Part shown: one piece after another, positions 30,953 through 62,539 of the stretch | How positions within the stretch are numbered: the first letter of the stretch is position 1 | How the letters are laid out: the number at the start of each line of letters is the position of its first letter | NCBI GenBank assembly: GCA_027605045.1 | Contig: JAQFWX010000012.1 | Span: forward strand, 694,930 to 758,929 | Source: Phallus indusiatus | Taxonomy: Eukaryota; Basidiomycota; Agaricomycetes; Phallales; Phallaceae | DNA length: 64,000 nt | Direction of reading: 5' to 3' | Made by a program: the position numbers and the translations under genes | The notes under the pieces: model-generated | Database searches by the model: none | Told to the model about the DNA's origin: nothing | What the model saw: only the letters and a program-made list of their open reading frames with translations

Positions 30953-31293
30953 AATCCAGTGCTCGACTTCCAGTATTTTTACAATGATCTGAAGCTATCC
31001 GATGAAATCAAAGTAAACGAATGCATTCATATTCCTATCATACAAACTTCGTATACTCTGATTGGGGCCCTTATATCCCATCATCCTGGAATCTTAATCT
31101 GGCATCTTATCTTCTATCGTGCTGCCCTGTTCCACAATTATGTCCTTTTCCTAGATACCCCTTTTAATGTCTTCACCGAACCCCCTCCACATCAACCCAC
31201 TGCTCCCTTGCCCAAATATGAAGAACCTGAAGAGCTTATACCTAATGCTCCTTGACTTTGCCAAAATTGAAATTGCATGTGTCCTATGATAGT
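30953..31293 (+). other. Unassigned ORF fragment
   Basis: A 98-codon plus frame (30959-31255) reads MLDFQYFYNDLKLSDEIKV and ends in a Pro-rich tail (EPPPHQPTAPLPKYEEPEEL). No family recognised; probably a remnant. It ends just before the left TSD (ATAGT, 31289-31293) of solo LTR A3. Confidence 0.25.
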
Positions 31294-31347
31294 TGTTAGG
31301 GCTACTCAGCTCACACTAGAGGGAGGGAATCCTAAGAGAGATATATT
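31294..31347 (-). repeat. Solo LTR A3, first piece (54 bp)
   Basis: TGTTAGGGCTACTCAGC... after ATAGT (31289-31293). It stops at the 8-bp GATATATT (31340-31347), where element B1 is inserted. Its continuation is at 50633-50976 in opposite orientation, ending at ACTAT, the complement of ATAGT. The two pieces add up to a full-length family A LTR (about 390 bp). Confidence 0.85.
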
Positions 31348-31925
31348 TAGTGTTGCCGTGGTTCAGTTCTGAACCGAAAAAAGACTGAACCGAACTGCAA
31401 ACTGAACTGAAAAAAACCGATTAATCAGTTCGGTTCAGTTCGGTTCAGAAATCAGTTCGGTTCGTGGTTCGGAAATATTCAGAAAATTGCTGATCCACTT
31501 CGAACTGTTTCGAACCGGTTCATGAACCAATCCACATATTGCTATATGACTGAGTGAAAATATTGAATTTTGTCGTGATTTTTTTTTTATTTTGGCTCTA
31601 GAGAGCTCAAAAATTGCCCAAAATGGAAACAAAAAAATATGCCATAATTATTTTTTAAATATCTACAAGATAAGTCAGACACCTATTTAGGCACCCGTGT
31701 TACATAAGCAAAAAATTTGTCGAAAATCATGTAAATTCAATGAAATCTAGAAAAAAAATGAATACTGTTGCAAACCGGTTCGAACCATTGAACCGAACTG
31801 AAAAAAACCGAACCGAACCGAACCATTTTACATCAGTTCGGTTCAGCGAAATCTCCCAAACCGAACCATCGGTTCGGTTTTCAGTTCGGCAAAAAGTGTC
31901 AAAAAACCGGACCATGGCAACACTA
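31348..31925. mobile_element. hAT-like element, family B, copy B1 (578 bp)
   Basis: TAGTGTTGCCGTGGTTCAG...CATGGCAACACTA. Interior rich in GAACCGAACTGAACC motifs. Flanks are GATATATT (left) and CTTACGAA (right), which do not match each other; each matches a flank of B2 (50977-51482) in reverse complement. Non-coding. Confidence 0.85.
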
Positions 31926-34577
31926 CTTACGAATCTCACAACTTGTTTACATTTCTCAAGTTCGGAATCTATTTCGAACTGAGCTAGAATTATTTATCTG
32001 ATGTGTATATAAACCCTAGTATACTCGTAGATAATTCCTCAGACTTAATATTGAATGTAGTTCGATATCTCTATAAACTCTCTCTTTCTCTTACTCTCTT
32101 CATCATTGAATGTCGAGATCATCCTTCGAGACTTGCAGCGATGGAAGTAAGGCTGTTCACGGGTGCCAACCCGCGGGTTTGGGTACCTGTTTTCGGGTAC
32201 CCTTGGTTACTCAGACCCAGACCCGCACCCTCGTGGGTTTTTCCCACAGGTACCCGTGCTTTTAAAAGCCAAACCCGCACCCTAGGGTTTTACCTCTCAA
32301 AACCTGGGTGTTTACCCGGGTTTACCCGAGGGTCTACTCAAATATGCAGGTACCCACAGGTACCTGCGGGTAAGTACCTAGTGCCCGCTTATGTAAACAA
32401 AAATTGAAAATGTAGATATCAAAAAATTATCTAATACATTTTTTTCCATTTTGGATTTGGAGCAAAATTGAGCTTTCTAGAGCAAAAATAAAAAATTTGC
32501 ACAAATGCCTCGATAATTGCTTTGGGCGTCTATCGCTTAAGTGGGTGATTATGTAAGCTAAAATCGAAAATGTACGGTGGCAAACAAAAATAATGCACGG
32601 GATATAAGGTGCAATATCCCACAGTAGAATAATCGTGTGACAGATATATGAATATGGTATTTTAGGTAACCCTTTAGGGACTTTTTTGAGCATATAAATT
32701 GATAGTTAATACTTGCAATTTAGAGAGGTGTGAATGTTTTAAGAAAAACCCCCAAAACTATCTTTTTCTAGGACATTTTTTTTAATATGAAAAAATGCTT
32801 ATATTGTACTTTAGAATGCTCTCTTTTATTTTGACTTAGCAACCATGTGTTGAATTGCACTTCCCAGAGAGGTATAAGGTCCGGAATATGGCCATTTTGG
32901 CCTAAAATGGCCTAAACTGGGCGGTTTTACCCCTTAGAGGGGTTATTAGAAGCTTTATACCTCCTTGAGAAAAAAGAATTAGGTCATGGTCCTCAGCCAA
33001 AAGTTGTAGGAAATATGTTAAGTTATAAAACTAGTTCATCCCAAAATGACAAAAAACACTCTTAAAAAATTTTAGGTAAAAATTTTTCATGAAAATCCAA
33101 TTATTTCTCTCAAACTCAAAATTCAGGCAAGGGTTTATATACTCAAAATAAGCTTTCAAACTTCCTCTACAATTTCTATTATAAGCATTTTATTGTTAGA
33201 GTAACATGGTACAAAATAAGTGGGCATGCATTATTTTTGTGCGCCACTGTAGGAAAAAATAAAATATTTAGTACATTTTTTTCCTTTTTTGATTTGGAGC
33301 AAAATTAAGCTCTCTAGAAGCAAAATAAAAAATTTGCACAAATACCTCCTCTGGTTCAAAAATAAAACCCACGGGTTTGGGTACCCGAACCCGCGGGTTT
33401 TGTGATGGGTACCTGTCACGGGTACCCGGGTATAGCTGTAATGTATTCTTAGCTGAACCCAATAGAAGCCTTCTATTAAAAAGAATAATTACAATTACTT
33501 GCTGCTGATCTTGTTTAGGGATTCTGTTTTACCACAAAAGGCCTGTTGTTGAAGGTTGAGACTTGATAATTCCACCAGTGATCTGTAAATGTTAATTTTA
33601 AAATAGAGAGTGAGAGGGAAGACCAGTTGATAAGTCTTCAGTAAAAGATATAGAGAAGAGGACAAGACTTTTAGAGAAAAAGAAAATAAAGCCTAAAGGC
33701 TGATTGGCTGTTGAAAACTAATTTATTGATTTATCTGAGTACAGGAGTGATGAGACTCTATAGGAAAATAGGCCAGTCTTTATAGACTTTTGCCTGAGAA
33801 TAGATTGTACTGATATGGAAAGAGTCCATTAGAAATCAAGGAGAAATAGATAGGAACAGATGTGGGATAACAAAAATAGAAAGTAACAGACCGCAGGGTC
33901 AATGATGCACATGTGTGATCTGGTGAGAACAGATCCAAGATCCAGGAGAAATGAATCTGGTGAGAAGATAAACCCAAGATCCTGGTAGATCTGTGAGAAA
34001 CAAGGATAAAGAATTAAGAGAAATGAGTGGAGGGAAAATAGGAATAAACAAGGAAAAGGGATTAATAATAGAAAAGAAAGTAGTGGAACAAGAACTCAAA
34101 AAGAATAGCATATAATGAGCCAAGGAAGAGTTTATTGATTTTCCAGTGTTTTTGGGTTAGGTGGCACAAGCCTTTTGAAGTGTTTTTGGCAGAGAGAGGT
34201 TGGTATAGAGCCAGGAAGGGAAGATACATGACAATAGCCATACCTGTGAACAGCCTTAGACGGAAGCCACCTGTCGTTACCGAGAGTTATATATTGAAGC
34301 TTTCTTCATTATCGTTGAGCTTGATCTCATTCAGTACGAGATACAGCTCGCGGCTCTCGAAGCTCGGAACGCACATATCAGAAACGTCCTTGACGAACTT
34401 GACGCTCGCTACGAACGTCAGGACAAATCCTAAAGAAGACTGTTGCGGCACAACCTCTTATAGGTTGAGGCCAAGTCCTGACTATCGTCAACCCATGGTG
34501 ACAGTTATTAGTGTTCTATTCAGCAACTAAAGTACATTATAGTATCTATTACCATTCCCGGATATCAGTACTTGACA
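31926..34577 (+). repeat. Solo LTR C1, first part (interrupted by element D)
   Basis: Family C LTR sequence at 31926-32147 and 34267-34577, ending ATCAGTACTTGACA with flank GATGT (34578-34582). Together 533 bp; the missing 334 bp are at 51491-51824 in the opposite orientation, followed by ACATC, the complement of GATGT. The sum equals the 866-bp length of the intact family C LTRs. Confidence 0.85.
32148..34258. mobile_element. hAT-like non-autonomous element, family D (2111 bp)
   Basis: Ends TAAGGCTGTTCACGGGT... and ...TACCTGTGAACAGCCTTA; TSD GATGGAAG/GACGGAAG (32140-32147, 34259-34266; one mismatch), inserted into LTR C1. The interior is AT-rich, with two related blocks (near 32.42-32.52 and 33.25-33.36 kb) sharing TTTGGATTTGGAGCAAAATT, and GGTACCCGNGGGT-type repeats at 32.16-32.37 and 33.37-33.43 kb. 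No transposase frame. Confidence 0.8.
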
Positions 34578-35039
34578 GATGTCACGAGAAAATCGGCTCG
34601 TGACATGTGGCTTGAATCTGTTGTTGTTGATATATCTCTACCTAGTAATGTGCTAAGCCAACTTGTCTGGAACAACATTAAATAAAGAACTCACGATGCA
34701 CTCAAGGGTTTGCCTGGCTTGTGTTATCCATGCCGCATCCCACTTCTTCTTAATATATCCCATTTTGATGCTTGGATTCAGGACTTTACTTGTGGATCAG
34801 TAAAGTTCATTGAAAGGTAAATGAATATGCAACATGGCAAACCAGGTTCACCGATGTTTTGTCAGACAACTTGTAATACTTTTGAAGTATTTTTAGTCCA
34901 CACTCCAGCCCAGGCAGGACATCGGCATAATCAGGGTGTGCAGCATATGCCTCCCACCTAGTCTGTAGATATTCCAAGATGGGTATGTTACGCCATATGG
35001 TGGGAATGGTCTCACTGGAGAACACATTTTGGGCCTCAG

Positions 35040-35368
35040 TAAGGGTCTCAATGGATAATGGGTATTACGGGTAATACCCTTGGATACCCATACCCCCACC
35101 CATGGATATTGCTACCCGTGGGTACAGGTATCCGGCGCCTATTTACCCATAAGGGTATGACTCTGAAAATGTGCAATTTTAAGGGTACCTGTTTGTATAT
35201 ATACAATAATCATATAGTAAACTAAACCATACCCGCAGGTAATACCCGTACCCGCATAAGGGTACCCGGCACTTAAAATATCCATTCGGGTATGGTATGA
35301 GATCTGTGACTGTCAATACCCGCAGATAGGGTACCCATATCTGAGTGCCATACCTGTTGAGATCCTTA
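35040..35368. mobile_element. hAT-like MITE, family G, copy G3 (329 bp)
   Basis: TAAGGGTCTCAATGGATAATG...CTGTTGAGATCCTTA with perfect 8-bp TSD GGCCTCAG (35032-35039 and 35369-35376). Interior of GGTAATACCC/GGGTACC repeats. Inserted in the hAT fossil. Confidence 0.9.
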
Positions 35369-36377
35369 GGCCTCAGCAGGATCCTAAACATCAAGTGAGA
35401 TTTTAGAAAAAAGTGAGGGTAGAAGAATTGCTTACTTGGAGAACCTTGGCAATAAGTTTGAGACAGCTCCACTCGGTCAATGTGATGGTGAACATGATGT
35501 AGGTGTGACCGCCTGTGAGTTTTGGCACTTTGCCAGACCGATCTGCATGTAAGAGAAAGAAATCTACAGCCTGTATATGCTATTATCAGAGCGCAACAGA
35601 TGAATAGGGGATTATACTTATCATTTGAAGGTCAACAAGCCTAGTAAGGAGGTCATACATCGATGACCATTGAGTCCGAACCCATTTCTTAAGCTGAAGC
35701 AGCTTCAGTGTCTTCTTCTCACAACACTCTTTGAAGAATGCACGTGCTTGCGGAGACACCTTAATCTGATACACGATGATTAGATATTAATAGAATCAAG
35801 GTAGTAGGACAGAGCGACATACCTGTTTGATTAGAGCCAGAACCTTTCCAAGCAAGTCATGGACGTCAAACTCAGTGGTTCCTGACTTCGCTTCTTCTTC
35901 TTCAACTACACCAAATGGAGTTTCTTCATCTCTAATAAGCTGATCTTCTTCGTCATCGATCTCCTCGTCATATAAGGAATGTTTGCGCTTGGTACTGCGA
36001 AGTTTCTTTTGGACAGTACTTGTAGGGGTAGGGGCAACGCCTTTGATGAAAGCTCTTGCTGCTAGATTCAGGACATGCATGGCATAACTGCAGTGATGAT
36101 AGAGTTTAGCCATATGTACATATAATACTATACATACTTACCGAACCTGTCAATCATGGAAATCAAAGTCCAAGATGTCTTCAGCAGCCATGTTTGGTTT
36201 GGTTAGGGATGACATCACGGCATCATTGACTGAAGCATTGTCAGACGTAAACTATCCTATCTGGAGGAGAATGAGTTTGGATGAATGGAGTGTGTAAGGT
36301 TATCTACACACCTTGCTTCTTAAGCCGAAGCAATCTATCATCTATGGCACATGTAATTGTCTTAGTATGAATGCTGT

Positions 36378-36510
36378 AGAATAGAATAGAATACAATAGA
36401 ATACAATAGAATACAATAGAATATAATAGAATACAATACAATATAATACAATACAATACAATACAATACAATACAATACAATACAATACAATACAATACA
36501 ATACAATATA
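36378..36510. repeat. Pentanucleotide microsatellite (AATAC/AATAG)n
   Basis: About 26 tandem 5-bp units, mostly AATAC with AATAG and AATAT variants at the left. Open frames across it are artefacts of the repeat. Confidence 0.9.
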
Positions 36511-36583
36511 ACGAACCTTGAAAGAAACCTTGAGAGTTTGAATGGCCTCCTGTGCCTTTTGGATGATCTTGATCCTAAGTTTC

Positions 36584-36756
36584 TGTTAGGGCGACTCAGG
36601 GCACACACCTAGAGGAGGGAAAACCTAAGAGCTATTGAGGGGCAGCGACTAACTACTCACCTAGAGGAGGGAAAACCTAAGAGAACAAGCTTAGGCATCC
36701 CCCTCTAGGGAAAATGCATATAAGTACAGGGTATGAAGCACCCGACTGATCTCCAT
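36584..36756 (-). repeat. Solo LTR F4, first piece
   Basis: Begins TGTTAGGGCGACTCAGGG after GTTTC (36579-36583) and stops at CAT (36754-36756), where element E2 is inserted. The rest (after a second CAT at 49831-49833) runs to 50010 and is followed by GTTTC (50011-50015). The pieces add up to 350 bp, the length of family F. Confidence 0.88.
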
Positions 36757-37467
36757 CACTGAAGACATTGTAGGGTTTGACCAAAAAAAGGATCCTAAGA
36801 AAATTATGGTTCGAGGCATAGGCATATGACAATTCACTAACTTGTAATATCATATTATAACTATTACTCAGATTAAGGGATCCTGACTTGAAAAATTGTC
36901 AGTATGTTGCTATTTTTATCTTAGTTAAATTATGTAAGAATTTTTACTTATATAACATTATCAATAACTTTTTCTATTCAATCAAACAGTATACAAAGTA
37001 AAACATATATTATTATTAACCATAGCAGAAAATTATATAATGAAGTTACAGCCGTTCCGGTTACGTAAGGTGGACGCGCTCAGACACTCGGATTTTTGCC
37101 CTCGGCCATTCCCAAAGATGAGCCCGTATCTCGACAACCACAGCGAGTTAAGGTTCAAAAATTTGTATATCATTACTTCTATATATCAGCTCTCATTTGC
37201 CCCATAAGAGATGTCTTAACAATGCCCAGAAAAAAAGTCGAAATTTCTATCTATTTAGACTCCTATGACTTCATACATGAGCTAAACATGAAGCCTGTGT
37301 ATTTAATTAAGAAAGATTTGACATTTCCACTAAGTCTTACAGCTTGCAGGACACCTAAGACATCGGAAAAAAAGGTAGGGTGTTCAGTTGATGTCACAGA
37401 ATGGAGACGCGATGCGACACAATATGATACGACATAACACAGCACAACATTGTAATTTTTCTTCATC

Positions 37468-39358
37468 ATGCGCTTAACCAGAAGCTCTGCAGGCTCTGCG
37501 TCCAAACCCACCACTACAAAAAAACCCCCAACCAAACGAAGAGGACGTAATGAGGTTGATCCAACACTTATACTTGCCACAGGCCCTCGAATTCACAAAC
37601 CAACTCATTCAGTTGGCACAGATTTGACTACTACAAAAACAGTAGTGTCAAAGAAGAAAAAGAGTCAATTGGATGCTATCATAGAGCAGGATGAGGATAC
37701 AGGATCGAGTGCAAGTGAGACTGAGAGTGAGGGTGAAAGGAGGATTGCTGTCCACAATGAGAACTATGCATCTCAGGAGGAAGAAAGTATGTTGGTAGTG
37801 GATGATGTGGGGGTGGAACATTATGACTTGGGCAATGCTTCATTTGAAGATGATCTTGAGCATATCTTGAAGGCTCCCAAGAATAAAAAGAAAGATGCTG
37901 CCAAAGGTGCAAAGAAAGTGTCTGCGAAGTCTGTTGAAAGTGACACCCTGAAAGAGCTAAAGAAGGGTATTTACATTCTTTTATTCTGCATATCCATGAT
38001 CTAATTTGCTATTCTTGAGCTATTTGTTTTGATGTTCCTTCAAATGAGGGCACTGGAACAATTATGACAAATAAGGTTATGATCCCAGTATCCAAAACCT
38101 TTGAAGAAGTGCGCACCATCATTCATTGTGAGGTCGGATGTGAAGGAGTTAAGGAAAAATATTTTCCCTCCATTCTCCTTCACTTCTCCAAGGACCTAAA
38201 GAAGAAATTGTGTCCATTCAAAACTGAGAGTTACTGGGAAGATGTGAAGAAAGAGTGGGAGCTGGAAGTGAAGAGTAAAAAAGATGCAGCATGGATTGAA
38301 GTTCATATACCTGAGAAAGTAAGTGAATAATTACTGGTTTTATTATAAGACTAAAAGTACCTAGTGGTTGAAAGAACTTGCAGCAGCAAACAAGCTACAT
38401 GCTGTTTGCTCAAAGGCAGGCATGTCACAAAATATTCCTGTCAACCCGAAGATCGGAACAAGTGCCGGAAGGACCAGTAAGGGAGCTACACGTGCACAGG
38501 TTGTTGATTTCTATGTTTCGGATGTAGAAGAAGTGACAGAGGCTGGTCCATCATTATATGATTCTGAGGTTGCAGCAAAACAGGCTGCGCTGCTTTTGGA
38601 GCTCGAAAACTGCACCAAATGCAACATGAATAAAGATCCACAGGATCGTATACCCTGTCACATTAATAAAAATGGAGTCCACAAAAGAATTAGCCATGAC
38701 ATAATGGCAGCATGGGTACTTGCTTTGGTATGTTATTTATACTTGACATTTGTAACTACTACTAAAATTGTACTAGGTGAATAACGAGCCTGGTGTTACA
38801 TTGCAGTTACCTCCTAAATGCGATCCATTTATGGAGTTTCACTATTTCATTCCTGGCATGGCATGTGGTTCTAATCTAGGCCTTCCTGATGCACCAGTTC
38901 TAAAAAAACATCAGAAGCATCGAGAATTATCTGTTGTCATTGAAGAGCTGGCACTTCCCACTCGTTCTCAATCAGTTCCTCCCCAATTCTGCTTTATGCC
39001 ATTCCCTAAAAAAGTGATGAAAGTGATGCTTGATGATTCATCTTCTCCTGAACAGCAAACTAAACGAATCCATGTCGAGCCTGCATCTGAGTCGAGTGTG
39101 GAGGAGATTGAGTACCTGATGGTGGCAGACTGGCTACAGACACTGAAAGAAGTCAAAGGTACACAACAGCAAGATTTTTCACACTTCAGTACCCGATTTG
39201 AAGAAGAAAAGTGTCTCATGTTGACAATTGATACACTACTCGAACTCCTGGAGTCATTCTGGGGCCTGCAAGCTGGTTTCAAATTCACCATTGGCGAGAT
39301 TGCATTCTTGACAAAGAACTTGCGAACTGCTGTAAAGAAGATAAAGAATAGTGCTTGA
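37468..39358 (+). CDS. Accessory gene P of element X, unknown function
   Basis: Four open stretches on the plus strand with short gaps that look like introns: 37468-about 37964 (Lys-rich start MRLTRSSAGSASKPTTTKKP, then an acidic Ser/Glu-rich middle), about 38064-38317 (MIPVSKTFEEVRTIIHCEVG), about 38365-38730 (includes CTKCNMNKDPQDRIPCHIN) and about 38777-39358 (starts near NNEPGVTLQLPPKCDPFMEF, ends KNLRTAVKKIKNSA). The repeated pattern of a basic N-terminus, an acidic patch and a Cys/His segment (C..C.....C.I.K.GVHKR) suggests a nucleic-acid-associated protein. No known family is recognised. The first junction does not splice cleanly, so the gene may be damaged. It lies between the left TIR of X and the convergent transposase. 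Confidence 0.5.
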
Positions 39359-39406
39359 AAGGCGAAAAAGGCAAGATATTAACTTTTTTAAATCACAATG
39401 CTTCAT

Positions 39407-40082
39407 TGTCACGCCCGGCGTGCCCCGTGACAATTCCCGAGCTATTACGTAAGCCACACGCCGGGACCCAAGGTTCTCTACTAAGTACGCAGCACGTACC
39501 TACCTCGTACTCCCCGTACTTGATGCACAGCCCCCCGATCCGTCCATTTCTAAATGGAGCCCATCCGTCCGACTCTCTGACTAACCAGGGGTTCGGTTAA
39601 TCCGGACTCTGCCCGTTCTGTCCGTCCTAGAAACCACCATTCCTTTCTTATCCTTTTCTCCTTTTAGTATAGTTATCTTACACTCCTGTATTTAAACCCC
39701 AGTCTCGTAGCTGGGATTCCGCAGTCAGAATATAAATCTATTCTCCTCTCTTATCTACTCCGTCTCTGTTCTTCTCCGTACTCTGCGTGCTCGTCTCATA
39801 CTTAGTTGCGGACTTGCACGTAGTTCAAGTCCCAGTCGTCGTCAGACCTCTTGGGCAATCTAAGTTCGTCGTCGTACTTGACGTCGGACCTGTGCATACT
39901 AGTTACGTACTTCTCTCGTTCTCTGAAATCGAGGGATAACTGAAGTTGGGCGAGTGGGCGCAGCATACAAGCTGAAGCCAAGTCCCTCACACCCGTACTC
40001 TCCGTACTCTCTTTATCCGCACGCACGTGTTTCGTACTAGACCGGACTTATCCGGGATAGGCTCGGAACACGGCACTTGACA
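39407..40082. repeat. Solo LTR, family H, copy H1 (676 bp)
   Basis: TGTCACGCCCGGCGTGCC...CGGCACTTGACA with perfect TSD TTCAT (39402-39406 and 40083-40087), inserted just downstream of gene P. GC-richer than its surroundings, with repeated TACTCCGTACT/CCGTACTC motifs. Confidence 0.9.
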
Positions 40083-40327
40083 TTCATTTAGACTAGCAAT
40101 CCTTTTATTTTTTTTCTTGTTTCATACATTTTATCTATCCAATACCAATTGTTTTGCTGACAAAGATTCAACTCTTTTGTTGCTGTTTGCACCTTTCTGA
40201 TTTGACTCATGTTATATAATAAAATATTTTTATTGAAGTACATAAATCATCAGGTTACAAGAAAAGTTTTTTCTAAAAAAGTCATATATCAAGACATAGC
40301 AACAGAAATATACCCCAAGTGACCCAT

Positions 40328-41889
40328 TCATCCTTTGATTTTCTCCTTAGTAATCATGGCAAGAATGCAATGTATTTCATAATAGATAGTGTTACGGTTT
40401 TTACTCTCAACGGCCGTGTGGAAGGAAGCTCCATGTCAGCATAATAAGGCCTTGAAATATGAGAACACCTCCTCAATTGGATTCAAATCAGGTGAATAGG
40501 GTGGGAGATAATATACTCTGACTCTGCTGAATAGAATTTGCATACGAGTCTCTGTGAAAACGAAAAAAAAAGAAGCTTACTGTGCCGTGCATAATGCTAA
40601 AACTTCATCTACATGATGAATAGCACAGTTATCCATCACAAGAACACTACGCTGAGCTGGCCAAGCATTCATGTGTGGAAGAAGGCATTCAATGTAGTCA
40701 AGAAAACTTGGTCCATCATACGCGCCTTCTCTGATATCAGAAAAAATGATTCCCTCACTACAAAGAGCTGGAAGTAGAGAGTACCTGCAAAAACATCAGC
40801 AATGAACCATTGCAAGAGCTAGTACTTTACCCTGTTCCTCTAAGAAATTTGGCTCTAACTCTATGTCAGGGTACACTACCGCGTCCCCTCATTTTCCTTA
40901 TTTATTATCATCGGTATATATTCATTTCTATTCCATTTACATTTCCCGTCCATTACTTTCACTTTCCGTTTCCTTGTTCCGTCTCTATTTCACTTTCTCT
41001 GCTCGCGCGCGTCGCGCGCTCGTACCCGGCATGATGCCCGTGACATCACGTCGCTTAGGCTCGGTTCGGGCGCCTGGCACTTAGCTGTGTCAGGGCCGCA
41101 CGCCGCGTTATCGTTTTTCATGTATATAGTCGCTATCCCTAGAGTGAGGGTCCCTAAGCTTGTTCTCTTAGGATCCCCTCCCTCTAGGTGAGTAGTTAGT
41201 CTTTCCTTCAATATATTTCCTTAGGATCCCCTCCCTCTAGCTTGAGCTGAGTAGCCCTAACACTCTAGCTCTTGTACCCTTATAAGACCAGCCATTCATG
41301 TGATATGATGTGTGTAAGTCTATCCGGCTCTCATCAATGAAAACTAGATGTTCGGGGGTCTCAGATCCTATCAAAAATTTGAAGCATGCTCTTGCTTCGT
41401 AATTGCGTTCCATAGCTGCATGTGAAAGCTATTTCATTTAGAGGATAAATCAGCAATCAAACTGAACAGCGCCAGATGCACTACACACCTTCTTCATTGT
41501 CAATCCCAACTCTTTCAGTGCATCCCATAATGTTAATGCCCCAACTATAACACCATGCTGCCGTGCTAGTTGTTCTTGCATTTCATCAAGGTAGATATCC
41601 AGATTTCACTCGAGCAAAGCAATAAGGAACTGACATATGGGAGGTCAGATGTGATCTCATTATCAAAATGTTAGCTGTTTAAACTCACCTCAAGCTCTTC
41701 GCAATCCATAATCCTCTTCCTTTTACCTTTCCTTCTACCCCCAGGTGATATTAGTTCACCGGTGCTTCGCCATAACTGAAGGACCCTCTCAACACTGTGC
41801 TTGGGCATGTTCAGGACATGCGAAATCTGATGTATCTTGAATTTAAGGGCAAAGCACAGGTAAATAACCCATTCCCGTAGGTCATTAGA
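40328..41889 (-). pseudogene. Tc1/mariner (DDE) transposase of element X, N-terminus displaced
   Basis: Minus strand. N-terminal helix-turn-helix: LREWVIYLCFALKFKIHQIS, then HVLNMPKHSVERVLQLWRST and a basic GGRRKGKRKRIMD. Catalytic core: VFIDESRIDLHTSYHMNGW (first D), SVLVMDNCAIHHVDEVLA (second D, about 40.64 kb) and [19 protein letters not shown] (third acidic residue, about 40.48 kb). This is the Tc1/mariner DDE_3 type common in basidiomycetes. Damage: solo LTR A4 inside the core, an in-frame TGA at 40436-40438, and loss of the first codons at 41889/41890. The missing start ATGCCAATCATT lies at 49593-49604 in the other orientation. The terminal codons end ITKEKIKG-stop at 40328. Confidence 0.8.
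40864..41262 (+). repeat. Solo LTR, family A, copy A4 (399 bp)
   Basis: TGTCAGGGTACACTACCGC...GAGTAGCCCTAACA with perfect TSD CTCTA (40859-40863 and 41263-41267), splitting the mariner-like transposase gene. Confidence 0.92.
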
Positions 41890-42069
41890 GTATATAATGA
41901 ATAGAATGAAACTTACATTATCATCATCTATATTGAAGAATGTTCTAAAAATCTTTTTAATATTTATTTTGAAATTATATTTCTATTATAATTTAGATGC
42001 ATGGAAAAACCTTAATTTTAAGCATGAGAATACTCTTCGTAATATCAGAGTTTTCCTGGGAAAACCTTA

Positions 42070-42456
42070 CTGCTGTTATAGCATTGTAAGGCACGAGCAT
42101 TTTTGAATGTAAAAAAAATCATTCCAATAAAGTTGTCATATCTCAGTCTGTGATGCATATTTTGACTTGATTTTTACTGTATCTTGTTTAGAAAAAAATC
42201 TAGTTTCATTTTTTAATAAGTATATGTATTTATTGTTGATTTCAAAATTACAGTGTAATTTTGTGTAATTTTGTGTAATTTTGAAATCAACAATAAATAC
42301 ATATACTTATTAAAAAATGAAACTAGATTTTTTTCTAAACAAGATACAGTAAAAATCAAGTCAAAATATGCATCACAGACTGAGATATGACAACTTTATT
42401 GGAATGATTTTTTTTACATTCAAAAATGCTCGTGCCTTACAATGCTATAACAGCAG
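42070..42456. mobile_element. Foldback MITE, family N (387 bp palindrome)
   Basis: Begins CTGCTGTTATAGCATTGTAA and ends with its complement; the two arms are nearly perfect inverted repeats of about 170 bp around a centre with three TTTTGTGTAA-type units (about 42250-42285). TA duplications flank it (42068-42069, 42457-42458). The uninterrupted target (AAACCTTAATAATACAGG) is present in the other E copies at 6238-6252 (reverse) and 55988-56005. Non-coding. Confidence 0.92.
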
Positions 42457-43530
42457 TAATAATACAGGGATTTTTGGAAAATCTTGAGAAAGCTCTAATG
42501 TCACATACTGTGACTTCAAGTTTTAATTATATAGAAACTCAGTATTTCTCACTCCCTCAAAATTATGATAAAAAATTATATTGATAAGTAATTATATTAC
42601 AGCCATTCTGGTTATGTAAGGCGGACATGCTCAGACACTCGGATTTTTGCCCTCAGCCGTTCCCAAAGATGAGCCCGTATCTTGACAACCATAGCGAGTT
42701 AAGGTCTCAAACTTGGAAATAAGGATGTTCATATACAACAGAATATAATGATCAATATAAATATCCTTAACTTAGAGAAATAACTGAGTCCATTTTTTTG
42801 GCTCGAGTGACATGTGACGGATGCATGACAGGTCAATAGTCCAATCTTGCACTACAAAACATGCCTCGCCAGAGCAGATTAATCTCTCCACACCTGTGAA
42901 GTTCGAGACTCCACTGAAGCGTCAAAGATATAAGACTTAAGTCACGTGAAAGATATGAGTGTTATAAGTCCTTGTAAATTCGAAGCCTGCTTCTAAACTA
43001 CTCTACACTCGCGTATTTATATTACAGCAGTTTTCATTACGTAAGGCTGGCGTTCGTTTTTTCAAAATATTCATCGAAACCTTGTGAATACGATTAAGGA
43101 TGCACACGATTCCGGATCCAGGTCAGCCGGATCCGGATCGGCAGGTCATGGTGTATACCAAAAGTCATACTTGGATCCGAACAGATCAAGGATCCGCGGA
43201 TCCGAGTCTTTCGAATCCGAGTCTTTGTGGATCCATGTCTCCCCGGGTCCAAGTCTTTACGGATCCAGGTCATCCCGGATCCAGGTCTTCACAGCTCCGG
43301 GTCCGGGTTTTAAACTATTAATCTGAATTAATTTTTCCATATTATGACAGTATATATTACAAATAAATCATTTCGAAACACCAATTTTCATTATTTATCA
43401 TTAAGAATCTGATATAACTTGTTATTTACATGAAGGAGTAATATAAAAGTAAGAGTGCCCCTTCGTGCCCCTTCTTTTCGCCCCATCTTCAATCCAACAT
43501 CTCTCTTTCTGCTAACACGGCACGGTGCCC

Positions 43531-44723
43531 ATGGCCGGTCCCGGTCCTAAGTTACCTAAGAAAAAAAAGGGAGTTAGAAGAAAGCGCGCAGAGCGACGAG
43601 AACGATACTTAAGGTTTGTTTTGTTATGTGCTCAGTGTTGTAAATCTCCTCTCAACGCTATGTTGCTAGCAACCATGAAGAAAATTTGGAGAAGCAGAAA
43701 AGGTGGCGGGAAGGGAGAAATCTTGATGATGATGATGGCGAAGTCACTGAAGTGGACCACCCGGGGCGCATTTCACGAAGCCCAATGATCGTCGAGAAGT
43801 CGCAATCTTCTCAAGAACCTGTCATTACTCGGATCCGGTCCCCCGTACCAACATTCTCCTATGAAGCAGACAGCCTCTCAGCTCGGATTTTTGAGAAGGA
43901 TTTGGCATTGTTCATCCATTTAATGGTACGTTCCGTCCTGACGCTTGTTGACAGTTCAATAAATAGTACTGATCCAATAACCTAGGAAGAGAAACTTACT
44001 GTAGCCGAGAACGAAGCAATCGACTGCGGGGAAATCTTTGATCTCGATAGATGGAACAATGATGACACACCGATCAACCACAGCTTGTGTGTCCACGCGG
44101 ATCACTTTGACACTTCTCAAGATTTCCTGGATTTTTTATTGAAAATCAGTAAGTAAATTTTATTTTTTTCCTGCAACTAATTTTCTACTTACCTTTCAGA
44201 GACCTTCGACGCGCTATGTCCCAGTTTCGAATGCAAAACATATTCCTTGACGCGATACCCTGGATGCTTCGACGAATTCATCACTTTAAGCTTCCAAAGC
44301 CGGTTTATCCTTTGTATACTGTATATTTTAGGTTGGTACGCGATCTGTGCCTGTGAAGAAGTGTTAACTCCACACGGTCTATTAAAAACAACTAACCGAG
44401 AGCGCTTGGTAAACCTGAAGCAATTTTTCGGTGTTTATCAAGCCTTATCAAACATCTGGTTGCACCGGTGTGCTCTCACGGACTTTGATAGTTTTTGTTC
44501 CTATTTGCAGGGTTTGGCTTCGCGCCACTGGGTGACTCTCCATGCCCTTGAAGGACAAGAACAACGTCCGATATTTGTTCGCTGCGGAAGTGATGAAGAA
44601 GGTGGTAAAGGTGGCTTGTTTGTTGATCTCTATGTCAAAGCCGGCAAAGGTTCTAGTAGTTCATATTTGGCGAAGTTTGCGCAGATGAGTGTAAATCCAT
44701 GGGATATGCTTATTTCGACTTAG
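43531..44723 (+). CDS. hAT accessory gene 1, unknown function
   Basis: Starts MAGPGPKLPKKKKGVRRKRA (a strong nuclear-localisation-like basic run; an upstream in-frame ATG is at 43525). Introns with good GT...AG ends join RRERYLR to SNHEENLEKQKRWREGRN (acceptor before 43672), FEKDLALFIHLM to EEKLTVAENEAIDCGEIFDL (about 43926-43984), and DFLDFLLKI to KTFDALCPSFECKTY (about 44151-44200). The C-terminal third (44247-44723) is continuous and ends KFAQMSVNPWDMLIST. It has Cys pairs (LCPSFEC, ICACEE), but no domain is recognised. It lies between the left TIR and the transposase, is intact by eye, and is likely co-mobilised cargo or a transposition helper. Confidence 0.55.
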
Positions 44724-44756
44724 TTTTTCATGTTAAAGTCAATTATATATAAAAAA

Positions 44757-45830
44757 TCAATCTTGAATTGGTAAATGAGTCGAGCGTGGCATCGAAGAAT
44801 GCTGGTTAGACTTACCTAAGATACATGAGATGTGGTCAGGCGGGAACGGAACGATGTAAAGTGTTGCCGCTACAACTTTGTACCAAAATCTAGACGTGGT
44901 GCATTTATTTCTGCTAAGATTGATCATATTCACTAAGACGGAAAGTTTACGCAATCAGTGGATATTGAGTTATACAGGAGCAACTGTGAATTTGACATAC
45001 CTTTGAAAGAAGCCGCCATAAATGTAATAAATAAATGTTTGGAAGGAAACGGTTGACATAGAGCACGGGTTTCGATGTAAATTCACTTTTTCAATCAGAT
45101 GTTCTGGTTGTTATTATGAGTGGATTTCTCAATATTGACGAGCAACCATAACCTAACGTACCCGGCAGGTCCCACGATAGTATTTTGGATTTCGCGAAAG
45201 GCCAGGAATGATTTTGTTTTGTTTTGTATCGTGATGCAGTCGATGAGACAAGAAATCGTCGTTCTATATAAGACGGCGAAACAAAATAATGAGTCAATAT
45301 CTCGTAAATATCAAGCAACAGTGAAAGTGACATACCTCTGGAAGCTTAACTGGAGGTCTATTATTGGAATCCGGGCGGACATCCATACGTACTTGGGATG
45401 AACCACCCGATCATCCAACATTTATCAAGGATATTTTCTTTAAACTTGCAAAATGGATTGACGTTTGTAATTTATAAGATAATACAATTTACTCACTCAG
45501 TGTTATGCCCTGGACCGAAAGCTTTCTTTTGAACTGAGAGAAACTTTGCTGTTTCGGCCTCGTTTTCAGGCAGTTCAGTCTAGATGTATCAACAATCAGT
45601 ACTGAGTTTTTAATTGTGCACTTCATCCTTACATAGAGCGGACTATTATTTAGTCCAAATTTGGTTGGTAGTTGCTGTAAATGGTCATTGTCCGGGACTT
45701 AGAGCTTAACACTTACCTGATTACAAATCACGATCGCGACTGTTCTTCCTGCCACCGCGACGTGTTCTTCATGCTGCCACCTGTAAGTTAATGTTCTATC
45801 CATTTTTTTTTCGTGTTCCTGATTGTTTGA
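44757..45830 (-). CDS. hAT accessory gene 2, probable, multi-exon
   Basis: Minus strand, convergent with accessory gene 1 and divergent from the transposase. Short frames bordered by good splice sites read, 5' to 3': HEEHVAVAGRTVAIVICNQ (about 45770-45715), QLPTKFGLNNSPLY (about 45675-45640), TELPENEAETAKFLSVQKKA (about 45580-45510), WMIGWFIPS (about 45405), then ILTHYFVSPSYIERRF and further exons to about 44757. Donors such as GTAAGTGTT, GTACGTTAGG and GTATGTCA recur at exon ends. The exact exon chain and ends are uncertain and no family is recognised, but the density of paired splice signals with open frames favours a real gene. Confidence 0.35.
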
Positions 45831-45848
45831 TATGTTAGTTGGTGTTTA

Positions 45849-48803
45849 ATGGCGTCGATTTTTCTTATAAACATTATCACTGACTATGGACGCTGCGCGC
45901 ACCCCTTTCCAACCTCCATGGCTCCAGCCAAAAAAAAGGCAGCCAGCACGCCTAAAAAAAAGGTTTCGAGTAATTCTATAGCACGCAAATCTCGTACCTC
46001 AATCAGTAGTCCAAAGTCTCGTCACTCCAAACGGTCAGAAAATGAAAAGCGCTTCAACCAGCGGTTCAATGTTGAAGAGCAATCCGCAGAGGAAATCTTG
46101 AGTACGTACCATTATTTTCATCATTGAGATTTCATTTATTGACTACAACGTGTAGAAGTACAAATGTCCCACTGGTCTAGTCCGTATTATAGTCATTTTA
46201 CCTTACCTCCGGACATATCCCCTCGAAAGATGAGAGACGGATCCGAGAGGATTTACTATGTGTTTCGTTGTGCCAAGTAAGCCTTACCTGATCTTGACGA
46301 TTTCCTCACTAACCCAGTATAGACATCCATCTATTGCCGTCCGACGCGAACGGATAGAGGATAGTACGTCGAACCTCAGCCGACACGCCAAAGCATGCGA
46401 GCCCCAAGAGAACACGATGACTACTGCGCTTGGAGCTTTTGCCAGAGGATCTTCCTTCAGCATTGGGAGGTTCCGTTACCTTATTGCCAAGTGGGTCTCG
46501 AAAAATTACAGACCCTACTCTATCATCGAGGACGAAGAACTCGTCGAGATCTTTCAGATGTTGGACTGCCGCGTATCCATACACAGCCGGATGACTGTAT
46601 CCAGAGATGTCATAGAAATGTTTGACGCTTGTCGGAATGAAGTTCGACTATATTTTGAGGTATGTGTCCCAGATCCCATTTCTAGCTGAAAATCTAATAT
46701 ATATTTTGTAGAACTATGCTGGGAAAGTACACATCGGCATTGACGGATGGACATCCCCCAACGTCTACTCCTTCCTTGGCATCACCGCCCACTACCAGCA
46801 CGAAGGGCAAATGAAAACGATTATTCTCGACTTTGTGAAGCTAACTCATGCACATACCGGGAAATATTTAGCGGAACGATTGCATGAATGTTTGCAAGAG
46901 TTCCATCTCGATAACAAAGTGCGTTTGCCAGTTGATACACTTCTCCTTATCCTTATCGTTGTTACACAGCTTCTCGGCCTCGTTTGCGATAACGCAAGCA
47001 ACAACGACACTCTAGTTGAAGCCTTACAAGAAAGGATTGAGAATTGGGGAGGAAGCCCATGTCGCGTGCGTTGTTTCGCGCACGTATTGAATTTGGTCGT
47101 CAAGGTACGAGTCTCACTGATGCTATGACATCAATCTTACAGTTATAATAGGCTATATTATCCGTCTTTACTGTGAAAAAGAAACGTAATGCAGCTGGAG
47201 TTCAAGTATATCAAGATCTTGAACTGGGTTCTATGTTGGAAGAACTGGGCAATGAGGATGATGAAGAGGATGATAACGCTCAACACGAAGATCAAGACGA
47301 CGGACAAGCAGCAGCCGACGACGTAGCTATTGAAGCTCTTGCTGATGAAGAAGACTATCGAGCGGAAGCTGAGGAAAACACTGATGACATTCGTCAAGGC
47401 CAAGTTACAATTGAGAAGGTAAGTTTCTCGTGCTAATGCTATTTTATAACTTGCATGATCTTAACACTGTTCATAGCTCAAAGGCCTGGCAAAAGCTGTT
47501 TTCCACTCCCCTACCATTCGCGAATCCCTTGAACAAGAATGTCGCCGCGCCGAACCGCCAATCGACTATCATGTACTTGTGCGGCCGGTTGCCACAAGGT
47601 GGAACTCCCTGACAATGACGATCAAAAGTGCCTTGAAGTTACGACCAGCATTAAGCTCTCTTGTCGACCTTTCTATCCATAACCGAATTAGAAGCACCCG
47701 ACTTCGCCGGTTTGCGTTGGACGAAGATGAATGGAACATACTGGAGCAGCTTTTACCGCTGCTAGATGTAAGTTTTATTCTTGCTCATTCATATCAACTA
47801 CTAATCACACATCATTCAAAAGCGTTTTATTGTCGTGACTGAAGTTATTTCTCGCTCGGCCTATCCATTAGTCCACTTGGTCATCCCATATATCGACCAA
47901 CTGACGGACGCAATGGAGAAATGGTCGAAAAATCAGAAGCTGCACCCAGCCGTGCGTATGGCGAGCAAGCGTGGTTGGGCCATGATGAACAAGTACTATG
48001 GCCTAACTGATGATTCAGTTATCTATAGGGTCGCAATGAGTGAGTATCTGGTTCTGTGACGGATATGTAAACTGAACGTACACTAGTTTTGCACCCCAGA
48101 CGCAAAACCACATATTTCCGTACTGCAAAGTGGCCCGAAAGTTGGATCCAAACAGCGATTGATATCGCGCGCACTGAATGGATAAGAAACTACAAGCCAA
48201 ACAATATGGTAACTGTAGTACAAGACAATGTTAATCTTTCGGAATCCCAGGTAAGTCATCGTCCATTCTGATCACTTAGTTTTGGCTTATGAGATGTAGA
48301 ACTCCTACTTTACGGACATGGACTTGGATGGCAATGAAAGTGCTGACGCATTTGAGCTGTATATCTCTAGTCCGCCTATACCGACGGTTACCTGTCCGAT
48401 CGCTTACTGGTACGCACTTGACAAAACTGGAGATCCGCTTGCAAAAATGGCCCTGCATTTTTTGACGTGCCCAGGTATGATTTGTTTCTGCTGTTCACTA
48501 GTGTTCTCAAGTACATTTCAAGCTGCGTCAACAGATGTTGAGCGCGCCTTTTCACGTGGCCGTTTGACAGTATCTCGAATGCGACACAATCTCTCGGATG
48601 AAAGCACACGTGCATCGACAGTTATGAGCTCATGGTTCAAGCAAACGTACTTGATACCTGATCAATCTCTCATCAAAGCTTTCGGTCGTAAGCAAATTCG
48701 GCCAAATAACGGTGGAGTGCAAAACACTGAAGACGTGGATGATGAGGAGACAAGCGGGGCAGAGCAGAATGAAGAGACTGATGATCAAGATGAAGCCGAG
48801 TAG
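45849..48803 (+). CDS. hAT-superfamily transposase
   Basis: Catalyses cut-and-paste transposition of the surrounding 5.9-kb element. Basic N-terminus (an alternative in-frame start at 45918 gives MAPAKKKAASTPKKK). A BED-type zinc finger follows around 46250-46400 (C..A, then TSNLSRHAKACE). Then come YRPYSIIEDEELVEIFQML, HIGIDGWTSPNVYSFLGI (first catalytic Asp, about 46735), LLGLVCDNASNNDTLVEAL (second Asp, about 46980), RCFAHVLNLVVK, VATRWNSLTMTIKSAL (about 47590), and the C-terminal dimerisation/catalytic segment STDVERAFSRGRLTVSRMRH (Glu, about 48540). It ends with an acidic tail (EDVDDEETSGAEQNEETDDQ). About 9-10 short GT-AG introns are needed (for example, one ends before AAGTACAAATG at 46156). 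All key residues are present and no disabling stop is apparent. Confidence 0.85.
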
Positions 48804-49361
48804 AATAGAAATCTGAATTACATGTACTTATAAAAATTATCTTGACACTGAAAATGCTATACCGGATCCGCTGAGATCCGTCATTTTTTAAAAAAATCTC
48901 AAATGTGAACCTGGATCCGGCAAGTCAAATAAGCGCCGGGATCCGGAACCGCGGATCCGAATCTTTATGGGTATTTTCACGGATCGAACCGGCATGACCT
49001 GCTCAAGGATCCGGAATCGTGTGCATCCTTAAATACGATAGCTCATGCAATTTTGAAGATTTCGACTTACTGTTTCTTTAAGATATGTTCATAAATATTA
49101 GATCTAGTGCACCGTATACTTCATTAAGCTTGTCAATGTGTATTTCAAATTTTGACTTTTTCCCCCAAAAAAACAACAATCAAAGGAACCTCAAATTAGC
49201 TCATAAAAATTAGATAGTGCACTAGGTATAATATTTATGGACATATCATAAAGAAACAGTAAGCCGAAATCTTCAAAAATGGACGAGCTATTGCGTTTGC
49301 AAGGTTTTGACAAATATTTTGAGAAAACGAGTGCTGGCCTTATGTAATGAAAACTGCTGTA

Positions 49362-49604
49362 ACTACTGTTATTGTAAATACCAAAAAGGAGAATAAAAGA
49401 AAACTTGATTAAAATATCGAATAAAAGAAATATAGCTCAATGAAGAGAATAAAAGAATTCGTTCTTATAATATCAAATAAAAGAAATAAGAGAACAAGAA
49501 AATACCGCATTTGGTTGAACAAGGCGGTGGTTGTGTGACGGTGTGATGATGTCTAGTAAGGGGATCACAGATCCCTTACAACACCTCCATCAATGCCAAT
49601 CATT
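49362..49604 (+). other. Remaining part of element X with displaced transposase start
   Basis: Non-coding AT-rich sequence of X between MITE Z and the inversion junction. At 49593-49604 lies ATGCCAATCATT, which, placed before base 41889 on the opposite strand, gives an in-frame start MPIISNDLREW for the mariner-like transposase. From 49605 the sequence is element E2. Confidence 0.6.
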
Positions 49605-49830
49605 ACTGAATGGATAACATTAATCATAGCCTTATATGATGAAGAATTATTACATAATTTGACTAAGATAATTATAGCAGTATACTGACAATTTTGCAAA
49701 CCAGAATCTCTTGATCTGAGTATTAGTTATAATATGATTTTGCAATTTGGTAAATTGTCAATAGCCTATGCCTTGAACTATAATTTTCTTAGGATCCTGT
49801 TTTTGGCTAAACCCTACAATGTCTCCAGTG

Positions 49831-50010
49831 CATGGGATCCGAGGGGATACAACAGAAATCGAAATAAATCGAAGAGATCAAGAGAACGAGAGAATGACAA
49901 AAATAGTGGAAATGATAAAGTACAGGAAATGAAGGAAATCGTAATACGAATGAAACTGAAAGAAATCAAAGAAATTGAATAATCAGGTGAGGCACTAGCG
50001 TACCGTAACA
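49831..50010 (-). repeat. Solo LTR F4, second piece
   Basis: Begins with the CAT duplicate and GGGATCCGAGGGGATAC and ends GCGTACCGTAACA, followed by the TSD GTTTC (50011-50015). Completes the LTR begun at 36584. Confidence 0.88.
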
Positions 50011-50015
50011 GTTTC

Positions 50016-50632
50016 GTCCTATGAGGTATGTCGTTGTCACGGGTGATGGGGCATAGGAACTTTATCAGTTCTCAGAACTCCGGCTTTTTGACAAGCCTAA
50101 ATGCCTACAAGTAAAAATAAAAACATGAGTTGCCAAGTTGGAATATTCAAAGTTCATAGCATTGGTGAGATGATCACTCATCATTCACTGGAATAACAAA
50201 CAAAAGAAATAATAAGACCAAAAAGAGAAATGAGAGGATAGGAGAATCACAAGAGAAAGAAGGGAGATACAATTACAACAAAAAGAAGAGATTTCATATT
50301 GACAGGTGAAACAATGACGGGAAAATCAAGAACAGAAAACAAAGAACAAAAGAAATACAAAAGAGAGATTGACAGGAAAAGAAGGAACTGACTCATAACA
50401 CAGCCTTGCCATAATCAACACCTGGCACTTCCCACACTGCCTCTTCCTTGAATCATACCACCATTCTCTTATTCTTCCTACTGATCAGGTATCTGTCGAT
50501 GGGTTCATCGAGTTCTTAGAATACCCTTGGCTTCTGTCAAAAAGAAGAGATCGCGATCTTGACCAATGAGTGCTATCCTTCCCTTTTTTTTTATTCTAAT
50601 ATCCTGCATTGTCTAGGTATTGAGTCAACTAT
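50016..50632 (-). other. Probable upstream part of the hAT fossil
   Basis: About 600 bp of degenerate, purine-rich sequence directly contiguous (after removal of LTR F4) with the hAT fossil at 34.6-36.6 kb. It should hold its 5' part, but no transposase motif is legible. Confidence 0.3.
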
Positions 50633-50976
50633 TGTCAGGGTACGCTACCACGTCCCCTCATTTTTCCTTATTTATTATCATCAGTATATATTCCCTTCTA
50701 TTTTATTTATATTTCCCATGTATTATTTCCACCCTCCGTTTACTTCCCCTGTCTCTATTCCTCTTTCTCTACTTGCGCGCTTGTACCCGGCATGACACCG
50801 TAGGCGTCACGTCGCTTATGTTCGGTTCGGGTGTCTGGCACTTAGCTGTGCCAGGGCCGCACGCCGTGCTATCGTTTTTCATGTATATAGTCGCTGTCCC
50901 TAGAGTGAGGGTCCCTAAGCTTGTTCTCTTAGGATCCCCTCCCTCTAGGTGAGTAGTTAGTTCTCCCTAATATATC
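50633..50976 (+). repeat. Solo LTR A3, second piece (344 bp)
   Basis: TGTCAGGGTACGCTACCACG... after ACTAT (50628-50632), ending at AATATATC (50969-50976), where B2 begins. Complement of the flank of the first piece at 31294-31347. Confidence 0.85.
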
Positions 50977-51482
50977 TAGTGTTGCCACAGTCCGGTTTGG
51001 TTCGTTTTTTTTCAGTTCGGTTCAGTTCAGTTTTTTTCAGTTTGGTTCAATGGTTCGAACCGGTTCACAACAGTATTCATTTTTTTTCTAGATTTCATTG
51101 AATTTACATGATTTTCGACAAATTTTTTGCTTATGGCGCCTAAATAGGCATCCGACTTATCTTGTAGATATTTAAAAAATAATTATGGCATATTTTTTTG
51201 TTTCCATTTTGGGCAATTTTTGAGCTCTCTAGAGCCAAAATAAAAAAAAAATCACGACAAAATTCAATATTTTCACTCAGTCATATAGCAATATGTGGAT
51301 CGGTTCATGAACCGATTCGAAACGGTTCGAAATGGATCAGCAATTTTCTGAATATTTCTGAACCACGAACCGAACTGATTTCTGAACCGAACTGAACCGA
51401 ACTGATTAATCGGTTTTTTTCAGTTCAGTTTGCAGTTCGGTTCAGTCTTTTTTCGGTTCAGAACCGAACTGCGGCAACACTA
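50977..51482. mobile_element. hAT-like element, family B, copy B2 (506 bp)
   Basis: TAGTGTTGCCACAGTCCGG...CTGCGGCAACACTA, inverted relative to B1. Flanks AATATATC and TTCATAAG do not match each other; they pair with the flanks of B1 (GATATATT; CTTACGAA) in reverse complement. Confidence 0.85.
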
Positions 51483-51824
51483 TTCATAAGTAACATCAAT
51501 ATATGCAGGGTATGATGTCTCATGTGATGACCATGAGATGCGCAGGGATAATAGCTGTGCATACATGGACCTACATTTGTCATCTATGATCTCATAACTG
51601 GAACGTGTGTGGAATATTCTAGAAAGGGCTTTCCACAGGTGTTCCAGGAGTTAAGAGAGATGGGTGCGTCTCTATTCGAGTTGCGAAGGTGTTTGAGATG
51701 ACTGAACGCGAAGGTCTTATCGTGAGTGACGTAAGCGAGATAAGATTACGGAGATGAATGGTAAGTGATCGGATATGGATTACGTAACATTACCGGAAGT
51801 GATGTCATGAATCGGATCATGACA
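51483..51824 (-). repeat. Solo LTR C1, second part
   Basis: Starts with the 8-bp duplicate TTCATAAG, then TAACATCAATATATGCAGGG, and runs to GGATCATGACA, followed by the TSD ACATC (51825-51829). Completes the LTR at 31926-34577. Confidence 0.85.
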
Positions 51825-51955
51825 ACATCAATTTAATGATTTAATTCAATTTTTCATTCTTTATCGAACTCGAACAAACAAACCTTATAGAGATCGCACT
51901 CTATGCGATCTCTCGAATTACTGATTACTGATTTATTCACTTTGACGATCGGTGA

Positions 51956-53155: not shown

Positions 53156-54020
53156 TGTCAAGTACCGATATCCGGGAACGGTAACAGATACTATAATGTA
53201 TTTTAGTCGCTGAATAGAATATCAATAACCGTCACCGTTGATCGACGGCAGTCAGGACTTGGCCTCAATCTATAAGAGATTGTGCCACGACAGTCTTCTT
53301 CAGGATTTGTCCTGACGTTCGTCACGAGCGTCGAGTTCGTCAAGGACGTTACGGATATGTGCGTTCCGAGCTTCAAGAGCCGCGAGCTGTATCTCGTATT
53401 GAATGATATCAAGCTCGACAATAATGAAGAAAGCTTTGAGATGTAACTCTCGGCAACGACGGATGGCTTCCGTCGCTGCAAGTCTCGAGAACGATCTCGA
53501 CGTTCAATGATGAATAGAATAGAGAAGGAGAGTTGTTATAGAGATATCGAACTACGTTCGATATTAAGTCTGAAGAACTATCTACGTGTATGCTAGGGTT
53601 TATATACACGTCAGATAAATAATTCTAGCTCAGTTCGAAATAGATTCCGAACTAGAGAAATACAAACAAGTCGTGAGATTCGTAAGTTACATCAATATAT
53701 GCAGGGTATGATGTCTCATGTGATGAACATGAGGTGTGCAGGGATGAGAGCTGTGCATACATGGACCTACGTTCGTCATCTATGATCTCATAACCGGAAC
53801 GTGCGTGGAATATTCTAGAAAGGCCTTTCCGCGGATGTTCCAGGAGTTAAGAGAGACGGGTGCGTCTCTATTCGAGTTGTAAGGTTGATGGAGATGACTG
53901 AACGCGAAGGTCTTATCGTGAGTGACGTAAGCGAGATAAGATTACGGAGATGAACGGTAAATGATCGGATATGGATTACGTAACGTTACCGGAAGTGATG
54001 TCATGAATCGGATCATGACA
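53156..54020 (-). repeat. 3' LTR of the chromovirus (865 bp)
   Basis: In sense orientation it begins TGTCATGATCCGATTCATGA and ends GGTACTTGACA. It carries a TATATAAA box (minus) near 53604, which in this LTR would follow the polyadenylated transcript. Confidence 0.93.
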
Positions 54021-54021
54021 G

Positions 54022-54033
54022 TATCCCCTCTTT
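54022..54033 (-). other. Polypurine tract
   Basis: Minus-strand AAAGAGGGGAT immediately 5' of the 3' LTR (two bases from its edge), the usual primer site for plus-strand DNA synthesis in LTR retrotransposons. Confidence 0.75.
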
Positions 54034-54315
54034 AGGGACGAGCCCCCGAGTCCATTACGTAGTTCCGAGTTTAAACGAGTGATCACGTGAGTGTAAACAC
54101 GTGACGGATAAAAATATTGTGATCACGTGTGTTGACGCGTGATAAATTTAGATTAGTGACGCGTTACGCGAGACGCGAGTTATCGGTCACGGGTGACTGT
54201 GACAATAAGTGACAACCTGAAACGCACTTGGTGAAAAAGTGCGGTCTTCTTCTTTTCACGACCACAACCCAGTCCTATCCTCTTATCTGTAACGACTTTT
54301 GTCTTTATCCTACCC

Positions 54316-60422: not shown

Positions 60423-60496
60423 AGACCGTAAAACTACTTTACTAGTACCACCGACTACGGCTACGTTGGCGCGTACTGAACCTTCCCGACTAACAT

Positions 60497-62461: not shown

Positions 62462-62539
62462 GATGAAAGAAAGAAGAGATATAACCGAGACGTAGAGTGT
62501 GCGATAAAAAGAAGAGCTGCCGGGTCAGACTTAATATAC

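Follow-up and report, generated by a model that had tools for sequence, protein, structure and literature searches.

In Phallus indusiatus, a 64,000-base stretch of contig JAQFWX010000012.1 (positions 694,930 to 758,929, assembly GCA_027605045.1; hereafter the window) holds a 19,051-bp interval, 31926-50976, that runs in reverse order relative to a second contig of the same assembly, C4. The interval lies between two inverted copies of a short non-autonomous element of hAT type, here called B. We consider it most likely that the window represents a derived, inverted haplotype produced by ectopic recombination between these two copies, a reading drawn from assembled sequence. The flanks of the two B copies cross-match, the pieces of the two solo long terminal repeats (LTRs) in which they lie, A and C, complement each other, and the un-inverted order of the LTR C side is present on C4.

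Results

The first of the two elements, B1 (31348-31925, forward strand), measures 578 bp and has the ends TAGTGTTGCC...GGCAACACTA, and B2 (50977-51482, reverse strand), its inverted copy, measures 506 bp. One copy stands at each breakpoint, in opposite orientations, and a self-comparison of the window gave 94.7% identity across 476 bp. Neither copy has an 8-bp target duplication of its own; their flanks match across the interval. The left flank of B1, GATATATT (31340-31347), is the exact reverse complement of the left flank of B2, AATATATC (50969-50976), and the right flank of B1, CTTACGAA (31926-31933), pairs with the right flank of B2, TTCATAAG (51483-51490), with one mismatch. The duplications are exchanged without any new one having been made, and in the alignment no loss is seen at the junctions. 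A first-pass annotation of the window, made from its letters, had already given these coordinates, the inverted orientation and the cross-paired flanks, and all of them held when the sequence was read and aligned.

How often B copies show such flanks was determined in the window's own assembly (G000; 67.2 Mb in 206 contigs, with the window at C24:694930-758929). B1, B2 and another copy served as queries, each search scored 40 of 144 to 154 candidates, and the family size obtained is a lower bound. Copies were read with their flanks at the loci of the first search and in 20 further stretches, and the element ends were sought with a tolerance of 2 mismatches. The ends are short terminal inverted repeats, TAGTGTTGCC or TAGTGTGGCC with their reverse complements. 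The resulting control set of 25 copies leaves aside B1 and B2 themselves, the B within LTR C of C4, L004 (whose flanks are those of L003), and two loci, L025 and L028, at which no pair of ends was found; partial copies, among them those at C189:90.9 kb and on C140, also lie outside it. An 8-bp target-site duplication was exact in 22 of the 25 and present within one mismatch in 24, leaving a single copy, on C204, without its own duplication. Of 1,200 flank comparisons between different copies, 2 agreed with at most one mismatch, and both involved L019 and L020, which carry the same flanks on two contigs and look like one insertion. Thus, a missing duplication is rare among B copies, and in this set no two separate insertions had cross-matching flanks. 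The C204 copy (L023, 1835-2417) lies inside an LTR C, has unmatched flanks, and no LTR end was found beside it. A partner for this copy, sought as a second swapped pair, gave one match with 2 mismatches and none that was recognised.

The broken LTRs supply a second set of exchanged duplications. The 3' piece of LTR A (A 348-400; 31294-31347, reverse strand) ends in the B duplication GATATATT and carries the 5-bp flank ATAGT (31289-31293), and its 5' piece (A 2-354; 50633-50976, forward strand) ends in AATATATC and carries ACTAT (50628-50632); the aligned spans are 31347-31294 and 50633-50975, respectively. LTR C is present as a piece that adjoins B1 and starts with CTTACGAA (C 312-532; 31926-32147, reverse strand), the 5' end of the LTR with the flank GATGT at 34578-34582 (C 1-319; 34259-34577, reverse strand), and a 3' piece that starts with TTCATAAG and is followed by ACATC at 51825-51829 (C 523-865; 51483-51824, forward strand). 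In the alignment these correspond to 32147-31925, 34577-34259 and 51482-51824. At the B copies the LTR pieces overlap by about the length of the 8-bp duplication, and across the interval ATAGT pairs with ACTAT and GATGT with ACATC. The alignment bears out the earlier proposal that these pieces are complementary halves with swapped 5-bp duplications, and the in-silico reversal suggested along with it, applied to 31926-50976, makes both LTRs, A and C, which B copies interrupt, whole again with their 5-bp duplications restored. Both are solo LTRs, being single, with TG...CA ends and a 5-bp duplication; for LTR C, ACATC stands on both sides in direct orientation on C4. Two features were added to the first-pass annotation. 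One is D (32148-34258), a later insertion of 2.1 kb within the left part of LTR C, with its own 8-bp duplication (GATGGAAG / GACGGAAG, one mismatch), which is lacking at that site on C4; the other is a set of older rearrangements within the interval, described below.

C4 is 127,838 bases long, and the portion read was 50001-127838. The query 34579-35020 matches C4:88749-89190 at 98%, and its two other matches stand at 92-93%. The segment 60.6-92.0 kb of C4 corresponds to 8.0-52.2 kb of the window, interrupted by insertions, with one block inverted (12864-14847) and another missing. Window 1000-3100, which includes a Sec1 frame, is found twice in the genome, on C24 and at C4:35637-37737. The far end of C4 aligns with C24:794640-797158, on the same strand and with 98% identity, and the part of C24 beyond the right edge of the window aligns with C4 93.1-100.7 kb at 97-99%. 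On this evidence, and as its collinearity suggests, we take C4 to be very probably the other haplotype (allele) of this region. The inversion would then very probably be heterozygous. Ten blocks compared between the window and C4 outside LTR C differ by 0.8-2.8%, mainly by transitions. Six shared blocks hold 284 transitions and 23 transversions in 16,851 columns, and 142 of these transitions fall at CpG, as expected from the decay of methylated DNA.

On C4, LTR C is found un-inverted, in the order ACATC, C-left, TTCGTAAG, B, TTCATA, C-right, ACATC. It is preceded by window 34.5-42.4 kb in reverse and followed by window 51.8-52.2 kb; beside the LTR, reversed window 34.5-36.4 kb matches at 96.7% and window 51.7-52.2 kb at 96.2%. 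A deletion of about 25 bp has removed part of the right B duplication there, and the 8-base comparison gives 3 mismatches. Further gains of this LTR C are an LTR A, a second B, which has a duplication of its own, and some 110 bp of sequence, of which 68 bp resemble D. Exact matches to the 18 bp that span the junction of C-left and B exist at two genomic positions, one on C4 and one in the window; 8 further matches have 2 mismatches, compared with 9 in a control. When 31926-50976 is turned round by coordinates, the order relative to C4 becomes monotonic: 11 of the 14 blocks of C4 73.9-92.0 kb share one order and one strand (two of the compared blocks having been trimmed of B), and the three left out, namely an LTR A copy, the 68-bp piece and the second B, are repeat insertions on C4. 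The window and C4 are then collinear from 16.8 to 52.2 kb. This collinearity after reversal indicates, at the level of the two assembled contigs, that the standard order is ancestral and the window order derived, and that the B element in LTR C is older than the inversion.

The un-inverted order was found in this way for the C side; the A side falls in a block that C4 lacks. After reversal, a single contiguous block of about 15 kb is missing from C4 (25401-31293, the A-B-A site, and 50632-42465), and its ends are joined at a palindromic element. This element, of about 393 bp with TA flanks, occupies C4:82188-82577 (compare window 25400 and 42464), and the loss possibly arose by recombination between two palindromic elements. 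A 1,971-bp probe for the missing block gave 14 matches in the genome, of which the one at full length was the window itself, and the flank beside the right-hand piece of LTR A (50011-50627), which is repetitive (43 matches), did not lead to another locus for the A side.

Other rearrangements lie nearby. A foldback-like element, E (copy at 55591-56426), is scattered over four pieces (36757-37047, 41894-42069, 42457-42597 and 49603-49830), with its middle part inverted relative to its ends. C4 has the two pieces that fall in its shared part, 36757-37047 and 41894-42069, arranged alike, and because of this the break-up of E looks older. A further break, at 41893/41894, divides a Tc1-like element that has TA flanks. 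Judged by eye, the fragment 41262-41893 resembles a broken Tc1-type transposase. Between 34.6 and 50.7 kb the six frames of at least 150 codons, those covered by the scan, gave no Pfam match at 0.001; no gene is known to be altered by the inversion. The segment 34579-36365 has relatives near hAT dimerisation domains on C123, C1, C144, C133 and C4, and probably represents the remains of another hAT element. Outside the interval, window 12864-14847 is inverted on C4 (C4:65573-70985; L056, L051), with breakpoints at the 5-bp TCGCT and inside an LTR A, and no repeat pair was found at the ends of this inversion. An LTR retrotransposon with a chromodomain occupies 53156-63405, with LTRs 99.9% alike; the corresponding place on C4 measures about 1.1 kb, against 14.5 kb, this element included, on the window's contig.

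Discussion

The arrangement of the window would be explained by three steps. A solo LTR of family C (duplication ACATC) would have received a B element (duplication TTCGTAAG). Some 19 kb from there, a second B, oppositely oriented (duplication AATATATC), would have inserted into a solo LTR of family A (duplication ATAGT), also before the event. A crossover between these inverted copies, by ectopic homologous recombination, would then have turned round the 19 kb between them, leaving each B with one flank from each site. As described in the cited sections of PMC8225341, recombination between inverted copies leaves no new duplication and yields inverted, usually non-identical flanks, and the sections cited of that paper and of PMC2775673 treat flipped, non-identical flanks without a new duplication as the mark of such recombination. 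We favour recombination since the flanks of B1 and B2 are of just this kind: flipped, non-identical and without a new duplication. Reversed-ends transposition is ruled out by the presence of two exchanged pairs.

The first-pass annotation had called the 19-kb inversion proven by its swapped duplications. The inversion itself is borne out by the un-inverted LTR C / B / LTR C on C4, with ACATC on both sides; "proven" is somewhat strong, because the A side is missing from C4, a single-step transposition gives nearly the same junctions, and the evidence is assembly sequence. In that single-step alternative, a hybrid-element insertion, a hAT transposase would have acted on B ends in LTR C that came from two sister copies and inserted them together into LTR A, making the inversion and the second B at once. 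Such an event predicts junctions nearly as after recombination and two B copies that are identical at birth. The model is described in PMC2775673, where, in the part cited, its outcome is said to look strikingly similar but to leave identical copies behind. The genome has 34 matches to the hAT dimerisation domain, without an established link to the B ends, and the maize hAT element Ac makes related events, by reversed-ends and by sister-chromatid transposition, according to the sections cited of PMC8225341.

What bears most closely on the choice is the relation among B1, B2 and the B in LTR C on C4. A hybrid insertion that took place after the haplotypes split would leave B1 and B2 closest to each other, whereas in 372 shared columns B1 and B2 differ at 15 sites and the C4 copy differs from them at 13 and 14, respectively, with 7, 8 and 6 sites private to B1, B2 and the C4 copy. 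A second alignment, which includes a poorly aligned end, gives 32/506 for B1 and B2, 14/447 for B1 and the C4 copy, and 22/401 for B2 and the C4 copy. In structure, too, B1 and B2 differ (578 and 506 bp), as B2 is without about 64 bp near one end that are present in B1 and partly in the C4 copy. The about equal divergence of the three copies, together with this gap in B2, leans toward two separate older insertions followed by recombination. The counts set against a hybrid insertion are small and amount to a lean only. We give a hybrid insertion a small chance of being correct, and a slightly smaller one to the full claim that a one-step insertion of this type, from LTR C into LTR A, made an inversion segregating between the two haplotypes. 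If it did, an inversion between haplotypes would be the direct product of aberrant hAT transposition.

Several observations weigh against recombination between two older copies, or against parts of the case for it. With about 15 kb missing there, the A side cannot be checked on C4, and the A half of the argument comes from the window alone. C145, too, matches the end of C4, at 100%, and is perhaps the continuation of C4's haplotype. B1 and B2 form one subgroup and are mutually nearest full-length relatives, the next copy standing at 87% among the best 40 of 144 to 154 candidates. The adjacent sites 339-340 of B1 group it with B2, against the C4 copy and 6 of 7 outgroup copies, and site 424 groups B1 with the C4 copy. 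The private changes of B1 and B2 are scattered. When a crossover inside B was sought with the C-side copy on C4 as the one reference, the changes proved private, scattered and partly conflicting in the states they share, and the B copies could not be shown to be chimeric. The shared sites and the closeness of B1 and B2 fit gene conversion, and they also fit a single-step event. Inside B, a stretch of 147 bp without differences (against 17 in 467 columns; P 0.025 by simulation) would be in keeping with a conversion tract.

We also considered that the assembler might have crossed between the two B copies and so flipped the interval. B is a repeat, the assembly has two haplotypes here, and our reading draws on the assembly alone. 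Against such an artefact, B is only about 0.5 kb long with copies 4-5% different, contig C24 is 1.28 Mb long, and the window is without N. Moreover, the C pieces of C24 differ from those of C4 by 2.3% on the left and by 5.0% and 5.5% on the right, and the left piece carries D, which argues that the junctions do not come from switching into C4. We therefore hold an artefact of this kind to be very improbable, and an assembly error at B, which the first-pass annotation had named among the things that would refute its claim, is unlikely.

Recombination between inverted transposon copies is an event of a known kind, and what is new here is a clean example resolved to the base, with four exchanged duplication pairs. 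Its polarity is observed rather than assumed, as C4 supplies the ancestral order at one end, and C4, which is un-inverted, still has a parental copy of B in place at one of the two sites. The signature of complementing broken LTRs together with exchanged duplications could be used to search phased assemblies. The region further illustrates how far sequence order can diverge between the two haplotypes of a single individual within a transposon-rich stretch.

The Galileo inversion of Drosophila is reportedly far larger than the 19 kb turned round here. As described in the cited sections of PMC2775673, inversion 2z3 of Drosophila buzzatii resembles the present case in having opposite copies of a DNA transposon at its breakpoints, with exchanged target duplications, and in being a natural polymorphic inversion compared with non-inverted chromosomes. 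Galileo belongs to the P superfamily and makes 7-bp duplications, whereas B is of hAT type and makes 8-bp ones; both Galileo copies were shown to be chimeric, whereas the differences between B1 and B2 are scattered; and the non-inverted chromosomes have single target copies at the breakpoints, whereas C4 retains B in LTR C (PMC2775673). Unlike in 2z3, moreover, broken solo LTRs provide a second set of exchanged duplications here (PMC2775673, same sections). In Atlantic cod, the part cited of PMC12368964 places hAT-type miniature inverted-repeat transposable elements at inversion breakpoints and ascribes them, as here, to ectopic recombination, although those are tandem accumulations at large-scale inversions and ours are single copies on either side of a 19-kb interval. 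Finally, the reversed-ends inversions of maize Ac/fAc likewise involve hAT elements and 8-bp duplications at the breakpoints, but, in the events described in the sections cited, they create a new duplication, which the B1 and B2 junctions are without (PMC8225341).

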